A DNA stretch of 64,000 nucleotides from contig VBIU01000021.1 of assembly GCA_005880945.1 (NCBI GenBank), positions 1 to 64,000 on the forward strand. The letters are read 5' to 3'. Shown here one piece after another: positions 41,666-50,674 of the stretch. The stretch is from Chloroflexota bacterium. GTDB taxonomy: Bacteria; Chloroflexota; Dormibacteria; Dormibacterales; Dormibacteraceae. The first letter of the stretch is position 1; each line of letters begins with the position of its first letter. Position numbers and translations under genes: made by a program. A model generated the notes under the pieces. It searched no databases. It had not been told where the DNA came from and worked only from the letters and a program-made list of their open reading frames with translations.

Positions 41666-43195
41666 CTAGAGGCTTCCGTAAACACGGGCTCCGCCCAGGA
41701 GAACAGCCATTGGGCGGAGTCGATCCCAGGTAGTCGATGGTTCGCTGAGAGGATCTCGCTCGTAGACCTGCAGGTCTGCAACCATGCCGGGGTCGAGCGT
41801 CCCTTTGAAGCCCTCCTCGAAGCTGGCGAACGCCCCGCCATAGGTGTACGCCCGCAGAGCCTGAAGCAAGGTGATGCCGTTGACCTGGTCCTCTGTCGCA
41901 GCGCGGATTCCAGGCCATGGGTTGGGATCCGTGGTGACGGGGAGGTCCGAGCTGAACGCGAGCGCAACCCCCGCTTTCAGAAGCGGAGCATGTGGCGCCA
42001 GGTGAGTGCGGTCCCTAGCTGGAAAGAAGAGCGCTGACGCGACGCGGCCGAAGCGCGCCGCCAGCGGCTGCATCACCGCGACCATCCGCAGCCTGCCCAG
42101 CCTGGCCTGCAGGTCTGGCGGACAGATCGTGCAGTGCTCGACTCGGTGTCGAAGGGCAACGCCCCCGGCCGCTTCGACAGCGTCGCACATGGCTTCGATG
42201 GCGCCGTCTCCGATCGCATGCGCAGCTACTTGCAAACCGGCGCTGGTGGCAGTTGCAACGAGCTCGCGTAGCTCATCAGGCGCCGTTCGCCAGACGCCGC
42301 CGCCCGAGCGCATCGCCACTCGCTCTGCTCCGCCGTCGACGAAAACCTTGATCGGTCCCCCCCGGAGGATCGGGCCGCCAAAAGCGGCACGGACGCCGAG
42401 GCCCGAGGCAGCCTCCAGCAGCTCCCAGGACAAAAACCCGTTGACGCGCATCTTGAGCTGCGCGCCTTCGGCGAGCCGCTGGTAGGCGCGCAGGTCGTCC
42501 GCGAATCCTCTGTTAACCGCGGCGCCGACCGACGTGACGCCGCGCGAGAGGAACAGCCCTTGCGCGGCCAGGATCCCCTGCTCGCGGCGATCGATCCGAG
42601 GCGGCGGCTCGACGTCGGCGACCAGCCTCATCGCGGATTCGAGTAGCAGTCCGTTCGGCAACCCGTTTCGGTCGCGGACGATCCGCCCGCCCGGCGGGTC
42701 CGCGCCGGGCGCCATAAGGCCAGCCGCCTCCAACGCCGCTGTGTTCGCCACGCGAGAGTGACCGCCGCGTTCGTCGATGTAGGCAGGCCGGCCGCCCGTG
42801 GCCAGGTCAAGCTCGGTCCTGTGGGGCGCCCGGAGCTCGGCCAGCTCATCTCCGCGGTAGCCCATGCCGTGCTGCCATTCGCCCTTCTTGAGAGCACGCC
42901 CGTGGACGCGTAGGCGGGCCGCGATATCGGCGACGCTGCGCGCGCCACCAAGGTCCGCGCCGAAGCGCGTCAGGCCGTAGTACACGACGTGCGCGTGCGC
43001 GTCGTTGAAGCCCGGCAGGACAGCCGCTCCCCCAAGGTCGATCATGCGCGTGCGCGGGCCCTTGAGCCCCACCACCTCGGACCCGCCGGCGGCCATCACT
43101 CGCCCGCCCGCAATCGCAAGATGGCTGTGCGGCTGGAGTCCGGCGCGCCCGAGCGTGCGAATCACACCGCGGGCGAGGATCAGGTCGGCTTTCAC
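41666..43195 (-). CDS. Amidohydrolase, YtcJ-like
   Basis: 509 aa metal-dependent hydrolase. The metal-site HxH is GFNDAHAHVVYYG near residue 65. The second block is in LQVAAHAIGDGAIEAM near 330, with RHRVEHCTICPP near 365 and the Asp in ALAFSSDLPVTTDPNP near 430. The small N-terminal beta domain begins LILARGVIRTLG. YtcJ-type enzymes hydrolyse varied amides or hydantoin-like rings; the substrate is not readable. GTG 43195 lies 24 bp from the divergent threonine aldolase ATG. Confidence 0.88.
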   Translation of the reverse strand: MKADLILARGVIRTLGRAGLQPHSHLAIAGGRVMAAGGSEVVGLKGPRTRMIDLGGAAVLPGFNDAHAHVVYYGLTRFGADLGGARSVADIAARLRVHGRALKKGEWQHGMGYRGDELAELRAPHRTELDLATGGRPAYIDERGGHSRVANTAALEAAGLMAPGADPPGGRIVRDRNGLPNGLLLESAMRLVADVEPPPRIDRREQGILAAQGLFLSRGVTSVGAAVNRGFADDLRAYQRLAEGAQLKMRVNGFLSWELLEAASGLGVRAAFGGPILRGGPIKVFVDGGAERVAMRSGGGVWRTAPDELRELVATATSAGLQVAAHAIGDGAIEAMCDAVEAAGGVALRHRVEHCTICPPDLQARLGRLRMVAVMQPLAARFGRVASALFFPARDRTHLAPHAPLLKAGVALAFSSDLPVTTDPNPWPGIRAATEDQVNGITLLQALRAYTYGGAFASFEEGFKGTLDPGMVADLQVYERDPLSEPSTTWDRLRPMAVLLGGARVYGSL

Positions 43196-43205
43196 GCGCG
43201 CCGCT

Positions 43206-43212
43206 TAGAGTA
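43206..43212. promoter_or_regulatory. Overlapping divergent -10 boxes (amidohydrolase / threonine aldolase)
   Basis: TAGAGTA: TAGAGT on the plus strand ends 8 nt before ATG 43220, and TACTCT on the minus strand ends 11 nt before GTG 43195. Only 24 bp separate the two start codons, so each -35 must lie inside the other gene. Confidence 0.45.
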
Positions 43213-43219
43213 GCGGTGG

Positions 43220-44248
43220 ATGGTCATCGACCTTCGCTCAGACACCGTGACGCAGCCGACGCCCGAGATGCGTCACGCGATGACCACCGCACCGCTCGGC
43301 GACGACGTGTTCGGCGACGACCCCACAGTGAACCGGCTCGAGGAGGTCGCGGCGGCGCGCCTCGGCAAAGAGGCATCGGTGTTCCTGCCCAGCGGGACGA
43401 TGGGCAACCTGGTCGGCGTGGCGGTCCATGCCCGGTCCGGCGAAGAGATCATCGCCGACGCCGAATCTCACGTCTTTCTATATGAGGCGGCCGGCTCGGC
43501 CGCTGTCGCCGGGGTGCAGATCCGGCCAGTCACGACTCAGGCGGGCGTCATGTCCCCCGAGCAGGTCGAAGCCGCAGTGCGACCGCGCGACGACCCGCAC
43601 GTCCCCCTGACCGCTGCGCTGTTCCTTGAGAACACGCATAACGTTCATGGCGGCGTCGTATGGCCGCTCGATGCGCTGCGTGCTGCGTCGGCGGCGGCTC
43701 GAGGCCAGGGGTTACGAGTGCACCTCGACGGAGCGCGCATCTTCAATGCCTCCGTCGCTCTCGGGGTCGCCGTCGCCGACGTCGCCGCGCAGGCCGACAC
43801 CGTAACGTTCTGCTTGTCCAAAGGCCTGGGCTGCCCGGCCGGAAGCCTTTTCTGCGGCAGCCGGGAGGCCGTCGACCAAGGGCGGCGGTGGCGCAAGCGC
43901 CTTGGCGGCGCGATGCGCCAGACCGGCGTGCTGGCCGCGGCGGGCCTGATCGCGCTGGACACGATGGTCGACCGCCTCGCCGAGGATCATGCCAACGCGC
44001 GGACGCTTGCCGAAGGACTCGACGAGCTGCCCGGCCTCAGCTGCGATTTGACACGCGTTCAGACCAACCTCGTCTACTTCGACGTGGCGAAGGGGTCGGC
44101 GGCGAAGTTTCAGGACGGATGCCGCCGGCGCGGCCTGCTGGGCGAGGCGACCGACAAGCACCGCGTGCGGTTCGTGACGCACCACGGGATAACCTCAGCC
44201 GACATCCAGTCCGCGCTGGCCATCTGCGAGGAGGTCGTCTCTGCCTGA
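43220..44248 (+). CDS. ltaE: Low-specificity L-threonine aldolase
   Basis: 342 aa PLP enzyme of fold type I that splits threonine to glycine and acetaldehyde. IDLRSDTVTQPTPEMRHAM opens it, GDDVFGDDPTVNRLEE is the family signature, the PLP-contacting Asp is in RVHLDGARIFNA near 165, and the Schiff-base Lys is in FCLSKGLGCPAGSLFCG near 195. Its stop is 8 bp downstream of the next gene's probable start, so they overlap and are cotranscribed. A threonine dehydratase lies 0.7 kb further on. Confidence 0.94.
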   Translation: MVIDLRSDTVTQPTPEMRHAMTTAPLGDDVFGDDPTVNRLEEVAAARLGKEASVFLPSGTMGNLVGVAVHARSGEEIIADAESHVFLYEAAGSAAVAGVQIRPVTTQAGVMSPEQVEAAVRPRDDPHVPLTAALFLENTHNVHGGVVWPLDALRAASAAARGQGLRVHLDGARIFNASVALGVAVADVAAQADTVTFCLSKGLGCPAGSLFCGSREAVDQGRRWRKRLGGAMRQTGVLAAAGLIALDTMVDRLAEDHANARTLAEGLDELPGLSCDLTRVQTNLVYFDVAKGSAAKFQDGCRRRGLLGEATDKHRVRFVTHHGITSADIQSALAICEEVVSA

Positions 44249-46505: not shown

Positions 46506-47888
46506 CTAGATAGCCAGTACCTCATTGGCCGCCTTGATCAGCTGAGGGCTGTGAGCGTCGTCGCGGGCGAAGATGCGGAACAGCGCCATGCGCACAGGCA
46601 GGCGCTTGAAGATCTCCAGCACCCGGCTCTGCTGGTACCGGTCCTCCAGAGGCTCATATATAAGGATGTCGGCGGTCTCCGTCATCGGGTTGAAGGCCCG
46701 CGACTCCTGGGCGGCCACATCGACCTCGAACTCGATGCCACGGAGCTTGCCCGGCAACCTCTCCCTCAGCTGGCTTGCGAACTGCTCCCTGGTGACGCTG
46801 AGCGCTCCAGTCGGTATCTCCCTCGCGTCTGTGAGGCCCTGGTAGATGAGCTTCCACTTGAGCTTGCGGGCAACGACGTCGGCCCACGCCTGGCCCAGCT
46901 CCCTTCGCGCCGCGTCCACGTCGCCGGTCGCCCAACGGTCCACCTCCGACAGCAGCGACCACTCCGTCAGTGACTGGTAGCGATCCAGCCGCTCCAGAGG
47001 GTTGCCGCCGAGCACGACCTCCAACGTCGGCCGGAACACCTCCCGAAGCTGCAGATCGATGCGCCTGACCGTGCGGTGGAAGTAGACCTGGTGATAGAGG
47101 TAGAGGCGCGCATTCAAGAACATGTACAGCGCCTCGGTCGCGTGCGCGTGCAGGGTGAGGCCGCGTTCGGAGACAAACGAATAGTGGAGGATGCGCTGTA
47201 CGTCGACCGGCCCGGTGGCGACGCCACATATATAAGAGTCGCGAGGGACGTAGTCCATGTTGTCGGCCGAGTAGGCGCCGACCATTGCGGGCTTGAGGGC
47301 CGCGAGCCACTCAGGCGGTCGGAAACCCACCAGCTCCGCCGATGAGATGAGGTAAGCGACCCACCTCGGGTCGATGAGCTCGCCATGCTCGAAGTCGGCG
47401 CTCGGCGACGCTCCAAGACCGCCGATCACGGGAGCCAGCGGGCCTGTGATCAGGGTCCGCCCGATGACCTCGTGGTCGATCCGCCACGTGTCGAGGTAGT
47501 TCTCATCGAAGAAGTGGCCGAACGGCCCGTGCCCCACGTCATGAAGGAGGCCCGCGATGCGCATCGTCTCCTCCACCAACCCGGCCGAAGGAGTGTCTTT
47601 GCAGCAGGCCTTCAGCGTCGGGTACAGGTGTCGCGCCCACTCACCGGCCAGGTGCATCGCGCCGAGCGCGTGCTGGAAGCGCGAGTGCTCGGCGGTGGCG
47701 AACACCCACCATGCGCTCTGGAGCTGATGGATGCGACGGAGGCGCTGGAGCCACGCGCTGTCGACGAGATCCTGCTCGGCCGCCTGTCCCGGCGCGCCGC
47801 CGGCGCCGCCCTTCGTGATGCGAAGGTATCGATATATGGGATCGCTGGACAGGTTGACGCGTGAGTACTCGAGCGGTACGTCCTTCAC
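46506..47888 (-). CDS. HD-superfamily phosphohydrolase (dGTPase/SAMHD1-like)
   Basis: 460 aa from GTG 47888. The HD metal site is built from SRFQHALGAMHLAGEWARH near residue 70, GLLHDVGHGPFGHFF near 115 and YSADNMDYVPRDS near 215. This order of H...HD...D is the deoxynucleotide triphosphohydrolase-like pattern, so dNTP hydrolysis is the best family-level guess. The C-terminal 150 residues are helical and mixed and lack an obvious second domain. GATAAT ends 6 nt before GTG with no Shine-Dalgarno. A longer frame to 47966 would overlap the divergent DUF309 gene and is not used. Confidence 0.87.
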   Translation of the reverse strand: MKDVPLEYSRVNLSSDPIYRYLRITKGGAGGAPGQAAEQDLVDSAWLQRLRRIHQLQSAWWVFATAEHSRFQHALGAMHLAGEWARHLYPTLKACCKDTPSAGLVEETMRIAGLLHDVGHGPFGHFFDENYLDTWRIDHEVIGRTLITGPLAPVIGGLGASPSADFEHGELIDPRWVAYLISSAELVGFRPPEWLAALKPAMVGAYSADNMDYVPRDSYICGVATGPVDVQRILHYSFVSERGLTLHAHATEALYMFLNARLYLYHQVYFHRTVRRIDLQLREVFRPTLEVVLGGNPLERLDRYQSLTEWSLLSEVDRWATGDVDAARRELGQAWADVVARKLKWKLIYQGLTDAREIPTGALSVTREQFASQLRERLPGKLRGIEFEVDVAAQESRAFNPMTETADILIYEPLEDRYQQSRVLEIFKRLPVRMALFRIFARDDAHSPQLIKAANEVLAI

Positions 47889-47893
47889 CTGCC

Positions 47894-47900
47894 GATTATC
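47894..47900. promoter_or_regulatory. Overlapping divergent -10 boxes (HD hydrolase / DUF309)
   Basis: GATTATC: read on the minus strand GATAAT ends 6 nt before GTG 47888; on the plus strand GATTAT ends 4 nt before ATG 47904. Only 15 bp lie between the two divergent start codons, leaving no room for any ribosome-binding leader on either side. Confidence 0.6.
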
Positions 47901-47903
47901 GCC

Positions 47904-48248
47904 ATGACGACCGGTCTCCAGGAGGGAATCGAACTCTTCAACCGAGGGCTTTACTGGGAGGCTCACGAGGCCTGGGAGGGCGACTGGATGCCAGACCGGA
48001 AAGGGCCTGACTCAGGTTTCTTCAAGGGTTTGATCCAGGTCGCGGCCGGTTGTCTCCACTACTCGCGACGCAACCGCCGCGGAGCAGTCAACAAATGGCG
48101 GAGCGGCGCGGACTACCTCCGTCCTTACCTGCCCGCCCACCGAGGCGTCAAGCTGGCACCCCTTGTGGAGGCGATCGACAGAGACCTCGCCGCGATGGGT
48201 GGGCGTGAATGGCCGGACTTGAAGATGCCGGCCATCAGTCAGGAGTAA
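47904..48248 (+). CDS. DUF309 family protein
   Basis: 114 aa. Matches the DUF309 pattern: EGIELFNRGLYWEAHEAWEGDWM near the start, then DSGFFKGLIQVAAGCLHYSRRNRRGAVNKW. Helical, soluble, conserved His and Glu suggest a metal or catalytic site, but no function is known for the family. It is divergent from the HD hydrolase with 15 bp between start codons, and its last 10 bp overlap the convergent molybdopterin-binding gene. Confidence 0.85.
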   Translation: MTTGLQEGIELFNRGLYWEAHEAWEGDWMPDRKGPDSGFFKGLIQVAAGCLHYSRRNRRGAVNKWRSGADYLRPYLPAHRGVKLAPLVEAIDRDLAAMGGREWPDLKMPAISQE

Positions 48249-49228
48249 GGCGGAAAGCGGCGACCGGCCGCCGACTCGATCAAGCCGCCGTGGCCCAGGC
48301 GCAGCAGGTCGCCGGCGTCGGCCCGGCCGTAAGCGAAGACGAACGGCAGCAGCAGGTCGAGCGAGCTAGACCTACCGAAGCCCGCGCAGGACGCCACGCC
48401 GACGACGGCTGCGTCGCCCAGCCGGCCCAGCCACAGCATGCTTCCAGGGTGCATCGGGGCACCAAGCTGTAGCAGGCGCCCGCCGGCGCTGGTCAGCTCC
48501 GCGTAGGCGGGATCGAGCGGATCGATCGCGGACGCGCCCGCGAAAAGCACGAGCTGCGCATCCGTCGCTGTCGCCTCGGCATACGCCGCGGCCACCGCTT
48601 CGTCGGTTCGCGCGACCTCTCGGACCGCGAGCACCTCCGCGCCGTACCACCCGAGCTTGGCTGTGACCGCCGCCCGGAAGAGCTCGCGCGCCTTGGGCTT
48701 CAAGCGCTCCGTCGCAACCACGAACGTGCGGAGGGGCCGGAAGGCAAGCACCTCCACCACCGGACCGCTCGTCCTGCACATCTGCTCGGCTGCGGCGATC
48801 AAGTGTCCTGGCACCGCGACCGGTGTGACCTTGCACCCCGCGACCTCTTCGCCTTCGGCGACAGCCTGGCCGTCCATGAGTGTGAAAACCGAGATGAAGC
48901 CCAATGCGTTGATGGCGTCGACGAGGTCGGCCCGCACGCGTACGAGGCCGCGATGCGTCGCGGTCAGCCGAGCCTGGCTCTGCACCGGAGGCTGGGACTC
49001 GAGGCCGGGTCCTGACAGCGCAGCGGCCAGCCGCTGTGCGGCGGCGTCTTCGTGGACGTCGCCGGGCTCGAGCTCGACGACGTGCACATCGCCGGCCTCC
49101 TGGACGCGCGCAAGGTGCTCGGCGGACAGCACAGTCCCCTTGCGCAGGTCGGGACCGAGATCGTGGACGAGCACCCGCCCCGTGACATCCTGCACCCGGG
49201 CCTCTCTTCCAAGGCGGTGCGCCTTCAT
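48239..49228 (-). CDS. Molybdopterin-binding domain protein (MoeA/MoCF-like)
   Basis: 329 aa from ATG 49228; ATG 49240 is four residues longer. The first 100 residues read like a molybdopterin-enzyme preface (DVTGRVLVHDLGPDLRKGTVLSAEHLARV). The rest follows the MoaB/Mog fold used by proteins of the molybdenum-cofactor pathway (VLAVREVARTDEAVAAAYAEATATDAQLVLFAGASA). The active-site acidic cluster of true MoeA is not clear, so a substrate-binding or accessory role is as likely. No molybdoenzyme gene is nearby. A TATGCT box ends 7 nt before 49228 (leaderless). Divergent from cysS with 21 bp between start codons. Confidence 0.75.
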   Translation of the reverse strand: MKAHRLGREARVQDVTGRVLVHDLGPDLRKGTVLSAEHLARVQEAGDVHVVELEPGDVHEDAAAQRLAAALSGPGLESQPPVQSQARLTATHRGLVRVRADLVDAINALGFISVFTLMDGQAVAEGEEVAGCKVTPVAVPGHLIAAAEQMCRTSGPVVEVLAFRPLRTFVVATERLKPKARELFRAAVTAKLGWYGAEVLAVREVARTDEAVAAAYAEATATDAQLVLFAGASAIDPLDPAYAELTSAGGRLLQLGAPMHPGSMLWLGRLGDAAVVGVASCAGFGRSSSLDLLLPFVFAYGRADAGDLLRLGHGGLIESAAGRRFPPYS

Positions 49229-49235
49229 TACTGGC

Positions 49236-49245
49236 AGCATAGATT
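49236..49245. promoter_or_regulatory. Overlapping divergent -10 boxes (MoCF protein / cysS)
   Basis: AGCATAGATT: TATGCT on the minus strand ends 7 nt before ATG 49228, and TAGATT on the plus strand ends 4 nt before TTG 49250. The two hexamers share two base pairs. Same compact design as at 47894 and 43206. Confidence 0.45.
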
Positions 49246-49249
49246 CGGT

Positions 49250-50674
49250 TTGGAACCGCCTGCCGGAGTCCGGCTCTACAACACCCTGACGCGGGCCAAG
49301 GAAGAGCTCCATCCGGTCAGCGCCGGAAACGTGGGCATGTACTCCTGCGGCCCGACCGTCTACCGCTACGTGCACATCGGCAACCTGCGCACCTTCATGA
49401 TTCCCGACCTCCTTTGCCGGACCCTCGAATACCTCGGCCACCGGACGCGGCAGGTCATGAACATCACCGACGTCGGCCACCTCACCGACGACACCTTCGA
49501 CCGCGGCGAGGACAAGATGCTCGTTTCGGCACGCCTGGAGAAAAAATCACCCGAGGAGATCGCCGCCTTCTACACCCAGGCGTTTCGGGAGGATGCCGCC
49601 ACCTTGAACATCAGGCCCGCGGCGGAGTATCCGCGGGCCAGTCACTACATCCCGCAGATGATCGAGCTGACAACAAAGCTCATCGAGAAGGGACACGCCT
49701 ATGAGGTGGACGGCACCGTTTACTACGACATCGCGAGCTTCCCCGCGTACGGCAGGCTGTCGGGGAACAGCACCGACAAGCTCCTGGCCGGCGTGCGTGG
49801 CGAGGTCGATCCGAGGAAGCGGCATCCTGGCGACTTCACACTCTGGAAGGCAGCTGGCGAGCACCGCCTGCAGGTCTGGCCGAGCCCGTGGGGTCCGGGA
49901 TTCCCCGGCTGGCACATCGAGTGCTCCGCGATGTCGATGTCGCTGCTGGGCGACCGATTCGACGTTCACTCAGGCGGCGCCGACAACATCTTTCCGCATC
50001 ACGAGGCGGAGATCGCCCAGTCGGAGGGGGTCACAGGTCACCGCGTGGTGAGCTGCTGGATGCACGGCGGCCTGCTCCTGCTCGCCGGGTCGCGGATGGC
50101 CAAGTCGGCAGGCAACTTCTTTCGAATTCGCGAGCTCGAAGAGCAGGGATTCGACCCTCTGGCGTTTCGCTACCTGGCGCTGCAGGCGAAATACCGCACC
50201 AAGCTCAACTTCAGCACCGATGGGCTCGCGGGCGCAGACCGCGCGCTGCGCAATATCCGGGAGCACCTCATTGAATGGACGCGCGCGGGAGATGTGGCCG
50301 CCGGCGAGGGGACTGACGACGCCGCCCTGGAGAAGCGATTCCGCTCAGCGATCGCCGACGACCTCGATCTGCCTGAAGCGATGGCCCTGGTGTCTGAGCT
50401 GACCCGCTCGAAAGTGGCTCCGGGCGTGAAAGCCAGACTGCTGCGCAGCTGGGATCGTGTGCTCGGATTGGACCTCGAACGGCCCGAGCCAAGGCGTGCT
50501 CTGCCCCCCGGCGCAGCGGAGGTGCTGGCCGCTCGGGAGAAGGCCAGGGCGGCGAAGGACTTCGCGAGGTCGGACCAGCTTCGAGACGAGCTGGCCTCGC
50601 TGGGGATCGCGGTCATCGACACGCCCGAAGGCCAGCGCTGGAGAGTCCAAGCGGTGAGGCAGGGTTCGAAATGA
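49250..50674 (+). CDS. cysS: Cysteinyl-tRNA synthetase
   Basis: 474 aa class I synthetase. The core begins RLYNTLTRAKEELHPVSAGNVG. The HIGH motif reads VHIGNLRTF near residue 42. Zinc ligands are Cys in GMYSCGPTVY, Cys in GWHIECSAMS and His in HHEAEIAQSE, and the KMSKS loop reads RMAKSAGNFF near 283. The C-terminal helical DALR-like domain follows. Length and order match CysRS rather than the related mycothiol ligase MshC, which is shorter. TTG 49250 is used because upstream in-frame codons run into the divergent gene. Confidence 0.95.
   Translation: MEPPAGVRLYNTLTRAKEELHPVSAGNVGMYSCGPTVYRYVHIGNLRTFMIPDLLCRTLEYLGHRTRQVMNITDVGHLTDDTFDRGEDKMLVSARLEKKSPEEIAAFYTQAFREDAATLNIRPAAEYPRASHYIPQMIELTTKLIEKGHAYEVDGTVYYDIASFPAYGRLSGNSTDKLLAGVRGEVDPRKRHPGDFTLWKAAGEHRLQVWPSPWGPGFPGWHIECSAMSMSLLGDRFDVHSGGADNIFPHHEAEIAQSEGVTGHRVVSCWMHGGLLLLAGSRMAKSAGNFFRIRELEEQGFDPLAFRYLALQAKYRTKLNFSTDGLAGADRALRNIREHLIEWTRAGDVAAGEGTDDAALEKRFRSAIADDLDLPEAMALVSELTRSKVAPGVKARLLRSWDRVLGLDLERPEPRRALPPGAAEVLAAREKARAAKDFARSDQLRDELASLGIAVIDTPEGQRWRVQAVRQGSK

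Follow-up and report, generated by a model that had tools for sequence, protein, structure and literature searches.

A putative leaderless and probably bidirectional core promoter in the 15-bp gap between HD phosphohydrolase and DUF309 genes of Candidatus Dormibacterota

Bacterial promoters that work in both directions by virtue of the symmetry of their -10 element were reportedly described by Warman et al. in 2021. Such bidirectional promoters share one -10 element in which -11A and -7T are reciprocal between the strands, and their two transcription starts are most often 18 bp apart (PMC10268837, PMC12825309). Leaderless genes of Actinobacteria and Deinococcus have a TANNNT box about 6-7 nt before the start codon and no -35 consensus (PMC3898074, PMC3160421, PMC12340547). 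In M. tuberculosis, the divergent genes Rv1129c and Rv1130 are both leaderless, and closely juxtaposed divergent promoters are described as common in this species (PMC3898074). Among the papers listed by our literature searches, none dealt with bacterial leaderless bidirectional promoters as a group of their own.

Layout of the HD/DUF309 gap and comparison with known promoters

In this study, we analysed a divergent gene pair of Candidatus Dormibacterota, a lineage in which the nearest relatives are metagenome assemblies. Positions refer to the window, i.e. the whole stretch of 64,000 nucleotides that was analysed. The features of the locus are the following:

46506 to 47888, minus strand: HD-domain phosphohydrolase gene, 460 aa, GTG start (Pfam HD PF01966, E 5e-11)
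47904 to 48248, plus strand: DUF309 gene, 114 aa, ATG start (Pfam PF03745, residues 5-62, E 1.2e-21)
47889 to 47903: intergenic region of 15 bp, CTGCCGATTATCGCC on the plus strand
47900 down to 47895, minus strand: -10 element of HD, GATAAT, at 6 nt from the GTG, 5/6 matches to TATAAT
47894 to 47899, plus strand: -10-like GATTAT toward DUF309, overlapping the HD box, 4 nt from the ATG, 4/6 matches to TATAAT
47888, minus strand: predicted HD transcription start at the first base of the GTG, from -7T at 47895 and a 7-bp optimum
47904 to 47906, plus strand: predicted DUF309-ward start zone, from -7T at 47899 (47906 by consensus spacing, 47904 if leaderless)

On the plus strand, the HD GTG reads as CAC at 47886-47888 and the DUF309 ATG occupies 47904-47906. 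Both start codons are credible, because the next in-frame HD start upstream (47966) falls within DUF309, the conserved HD 5′ ends of the family loci align at the GTG, and DUF309 has no alternative in-frame start ahead of its Pfam domain. A different DUF309 start codon was also considered, and none is conserved among the loci with a 15-bp gap. The spacing given in the earlier note, with 15 bp between GTG and ATG, GATAAT 6 nt before one start and GATTAT 4 nt before the other, is correct to the base. Its likening of the -10 symmetry to that of known bidirectional promoters is borne out as well (PMC10268837): A47895 and T47899 each provide -11A on one strand while pairing with -7T on the other, which is the reciprocal pairing in a shared -10 described for these promoters. 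The divergent starts predicted from the sequence would be 16-18 bp apart; starts 7-25 bp apart on opposite strands characterise bidirectional promoters. It had further been stated that any -35 must lie inside the other gene. This is so, and at 17 bp upstream, the only spacing scored, the hexamers found there (TCCTGG for HD, GAGCGG for DUF309) have 1/6 matches each to TTGACA; neither resembles the -35 of a sigma-70 promoter.

Compared with the known bidirectional promoters, the locus shares the reciprocal -11A/-7T, and its consensus starts, 47888 and 47906, are 18 bp apart; it differs in that its start codons lie at the predicted starts, with no leader, and that its coding starts are 16 rather than 18 bp apart. 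From the leaderless genes of Actinobacteria and Deinococcus, which it resembles at HD by the TANNNT spacing and the absent -35 consensus, it departs in the first base of the HD box, a G instead of a T, and in a box that also faces a second gene. The likeness to Rv1129c/Rv1130 would lie in two divergent genes that both have leaderless mRNAs. Given this precedent, and since juxtaposed divergent promoters are described as common in M. tuberculosis, we regard HD/DUF309 as a variant of known promoter types. Its interest lies mainly in the compact class to which it may be related and in a conflict of spacing.

Homologs of the HD protein occur in 41 of 42 family genomes. Its best sequence relatives in the PDB are 2hek, 2o6i and 2q14, all HD-domain phosphohydrolases, and SAMHD1; a dNTPase role is only a guess, since scores against the NCBIfam dGTPase models are far under the cut-offs. 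DUF309 is a Pfam domain of unknown function. Between genomes, the gene diverges 2-4 times more at third codon positions (0.41-0.56) than at first and second ones (0.12-0.25); by this measure it is under purifying selection, and its expression is presumed from that. At the other end of DUF309, a minus-strand ORF (48239-49480) overlaps the end of the gene by about 10 bp with its 3′ end and a cysteinyl-tRNA synthetase frame with its N-terminal part; it has a weak match, under the Pfam cut-off, to a molybdopterin-binding domain.

Leaderless spacing in the lineage and conservation of the HD box

We surveyed 2.14 Mb from six family genomes, comprising 1983 genes called with a home-made GC-codon-position script rather than a standard gene finder, and 5117 candidate starts, which are all in-frame starts in the first 30-40 codons. 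The TANNNT counts for spacers 6, 7, 8 and 9 are 103, 87, 56 and 70, where the background is 19.3 and spacers 0-5 have 10-18 each; a smaller first sample showed the same pattern. Counted by gene, 311 of the 1983 carry the motif at spacers 6-9, versus 50-79 in five other 4-nt windows. This sharp peak 6-9 nt before start codons indicates that leaderless genes are common in the lineage. The floor at spacer 6 is sharp and agrees with the box 6-7 bp before the ORF in Deinococcus (PMC12340547). Start codons as close as those of HD and DUF309 had been called unusual, which is weak for this lineage: among 377 divergent pairs, 16 are 0-15 bp apart and 84 overlap, when the 5′-most starts of naive start calls are used.

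The HD side fits the leaderless pattern, with a spacer of 6 (about 6-7 being expected) and the start codon as the predicted +1. Among 39 distinct family loci with an HD 5′ end, a TATAAT-like box is found at spacer 6 in 30 and at spacers 6-8 in 36, and is absent in one (L096), in a search that retained the highest-scoring box at spacers 5 to 12 of each locus and is thus biased toward a hit. Outside the 39 are seven HD loci of greater distance (L189-L195), in which no such box is visible by eye. The loci are related, and 13 of the 17 with a 15-bp gap belong to one genus, so these counts are not independent events. The box is retained while its flanking bases turn over. Outgroup genera with a distant DUF309 have it, and so do five of six tandem loci of a genus in which DUF309 is inverted and runs into HD. 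The HD promoter thus appears old and independent of DUF309, and the conservation of the box is explained by HD alone, since the box stays upstream of HD where DUF309 is inverted. Altogether, the conserved GATAAT is very probably the promoter of the HD gene, with a leaderless transcript from 47888.

In the genus with inverted DUF309 (L078, L080, L084, L093, L095), the inversion is in place, the DUF309 stop codon overlaps the HD start codon, and the HD -10 box doubles as the final DUF309 codons. Another observation concerns the Phe codon of the DUF309 ELFN motif (47934-47942 in the window), which is TTT in 16 of 20 loci with the box upstream and TTC in all 19 other loci, the window itself having TTC. 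With the TTT codon, a stretch rich in A lies about 50 nt ahead of the HD start. An UP-like element was considered for this stretch, the position of which shifts by 4-5 bp in L097 and L098, and we make no claim for it.

Probable use of the box toward DUF309 and competing explanations

An RTG exactly 4 nt from the box and a gap of 15 bp are found in 17 loci, one of which (L092, at a contig end) was judged by sequence only. Six other divergent loci of the same clade have gaps of 39, 27, 20, 19, 10 and 10 bp. In a tree of the HD protein, the 15-bp form falls within a single clade of good support, to which the 19- and 20-bp loci are sister; in the outgroup, gaps are 32, 41, 53 and 153 bp in four loci and about 1-4 kb, still divergent, in the other six. 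From the tree and the outgroup gaps, the 15-bp form looks derived, and DUF309 probably moved up against an existing promoter. In a locus of the sister lineage, L097, the spacers are 7 and 8, both canonical.

Toward DUF309, the spacer is 4, where about 6-7 would be expected of a leaderless gene and where spacers 0-5 are unenriched in the lineage; consensus spacing from GATTAT would put the start at 47906, the G of the DUF309 ATG. We searched for a DUF309 promoter within the HD gene by scanning 160 nt upstream of DUF309 in the 17 loci, with a strict pattern that weak boxes would escape. GATTAT at spacer 4 is the only plus-strand -10-like site common to 17/17; other such sites occur in three loci (spacer 48) and in one (spacer 65), and a second shared site was not found. 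As no other shared site is seen, DUF309 probably uses GATTAT, sub-optimally. Its symmetry and the lack of another site make it probable that the box also fires toward DUF309, and it is rather doubtful that leaderless transcripts from 47904 make up a useful part of the DUF309 mRNA. The proposal in the earlier note that both mRNAs are leaderless therefore stands very probably for HD, from GATAAT, and is not supported for DUF309, where the spacer of 4 is below the floor of 6 and the consensus start is within the ATG. The analysis establishes the sequence, its conservation, the spacing across the lineage and the TANNNTA enrichment; every transcription start is inferred, as is DUF309's reliance on the box.

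The explanation that we favour as a whole, with a probability of about 0.55, is an old leaderless HD promoter, probably bidirectional, that has become over-compressed toward DUF309. In the 15-bp gap we would see an old core promoter, leaderless and belonging to the HD phosphohydrolase gene. RNA polymerase would bind its GATAAT (47900-47895), touching a -35 little if at all, and start at the G of the GTG (47888). Self-complementarity at -11A/-7T would allow the polymerase to load in the opposite orientation and to transcribe DUF309, which would have come to abut the HD promoter in the clade with the 15-bp gap. In that direction, the box would be about 2 bp too near and 47906 would be favoured as start; an intact ATG would be left to the few transcripts that begin at 47904, a minority, so that DUF309 would be expressed weakly. 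The locus would then be an over-compressed relative of a wider Dormibacterota class, whose paired start codons have no regulatory DNA between them other than a TANNNTA box.

Several observations speak against this explanation and at the same time for a promoter that works one way only, GATAAT serving HD, and DUF309 being transcribed from an unrecognised promoter in the HD gene, with a leader lacking a Shine-Dalgarno sequence, or being near silent. The spacer of 4 is under the floor of the lineage. In L079 and L094, a TTG overlaps the box and the plus-side spacing is gone; since the TTG overlaps the box, DUF309 cannot be leaderless from it in these loci, and yet the gene is kept. Moreover, the conservation of the box follows HD and needs no DUF309. 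A further point against the favoured explanation is that a box too near the start codon gave aberrant expression in Deinococcus (PMC12340547). Against a one-way promoter stand the lack of a second plus-strand -10-like site common to the 17 loci (160 nt, strict pattern) and the expectation that a symmetric box fires both ways at some level (PMC10268837). We hold a one-way promoter to be rather unlikely. Overlapping -10 boxes that yield two leaderless mRNAs on a similar footing, with the DUF309 start exactly at 47904, seem improbable. The exact 15-bp gap with an RTG at spacer 4 in 17 loci would fit them, as would two published accounts, one in which start positions may vary around 7 bp (PMC12825309) and one that places the centres of M. 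tuberculosis boxes 7-12 bp ahead of starts, so that the DUF309 box would fall at the lower end of the range (PMC3898074). Yet across the 5117 candidate starts, TANNNT does not exceed background at spacers 4-5. None of the eight TANNNTA pairs described below has a spacer under 6 either, but there the limit of 6 was preset, so that the evidence is the histogram.

We also considered that CGATTATCG, a perfect 4+1+4 palindrome in the window, is an operator for a regulator and not a -10 box. This was rejected, as conservation is limited to the HD half (ATAATCG); the other arm varies, with G in 10 and A in 8 rows at -12, a tally over 18 rows, namely the 17 loci with a 15-bp gap and L107, which has a gap of 153 and was included in error. 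A fixed distance separates the box from the HD start, as expected of a -10. An operator is very improbable. For a chance AT-rich heptamer between genes, to which we give practically no credence, we found no supporting point: the heptamer is conserved across genera despite third-position differences of 0.41-0.56, and the spacing peak is lineage-wide.

Divergent pairs with a shared TANNNTA box

TANNNTA, a self-complementary -10, lies 6-10 nt from each start codon in 8 of the 377 divergent pairs, with gaps of about 20 bp. Each of 15 other self-complementary 7-mers of the same form gives 0-3 pairs, an altered middle length of the TA motif 0-1, and shuffling of the gaps a mean of 0.36 with a maximum of 3 in 500. 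The eight pairs include orthologs and represent about five independent loci: beta-eliminating lyase/amidohydrolase, LysR regulator/carboxyltransferase, ABC permease/ATPase, phosphoribosyltransferase/DUF503 and small ORF/DNA ligase. The seventh base of the box supplies the -12T for the opposite direction, and after TANNNT it is A in 30/97 close divergent cases, versus 14/156 tandem and 6/63 far divergent ones (31% vs 9-10%; Fisher p 1.3e-5 for close divergent vs tandem, with shared boxes counted twice and orthologs included). This is comparative evidence, from a little-studied phylum, that -10 symmetry is favoured specifically at closely diverging genes.

HD/DUF309 itself falls outside the group defined by TANNNTA with 6-10 nt on each side, having GATTATC and spacers of 6 and 4; L097 has the spacing (7 and 8) and likewise lacks the outer T and A. 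It is tentatively suggested that Dormibacterota use bidirectional core promoters of a leaderless class, where one self-complementary TANNNTA box is the sole DNA between two genes and both start codons are transcription starts, and that HD/DUF309 has been compressed past the limit, so that use of the HD promoter brakes the DUF309 protein. If the brake existed, DUF309-ward polymerase would start abnormally close to the box or clip the start codon. A two-gene promoter could then shrink to about 20 bp without leaders, at HD/DUF309 also without a ribosome-binding site or a -35 box. The locus also offers a natural setting in which to gauge how near to a leaderless start codon a -10 box can lie. Against such a class are the small number of independent loci and raw genome-wide counts: CAY-N6-TANNNTA-N6-RTG occurs 24 times over 42 genomes regardless of gene context, which is no enrichment over two other self-complementary motifs (43 and 54, pattern-count rows summed by hand) and a reversed control (30). 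As a test of the class, this count was set aside as not informative.

Judged by sequence, twelve of the 24 matches seem to represent a single conserved locus ahead of a carboxyltransferase gene, with TACGATA in a gap that is nearly identical across genera (L062:6795-6819; L141:2252-2277). The gene facing this gap is LysR in L141, whereas in the genome of the window there is only a 7-codon frame from the opposite GTG. The window contains a second gap of the bidirectional type:

43196 to 43219: gap with TAGAGTA, spacers 8 (plus) and 11 (minus), between starts at 43195 and 43220
41666 to 43195, minus strand: amidohydrolase gene, divergent from the lyase gene (Pfam PF07969)
43220 to 44248, plus strand: beta-eliminating lyase gene (Pfam PF01212), which we take to be of the threonine-aldolase type

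Its minus-side spacer of 11 is just beyond the 6-10 limit, and TANNNTA is present at 26 of 30 family loci of this gap, counted by eye.
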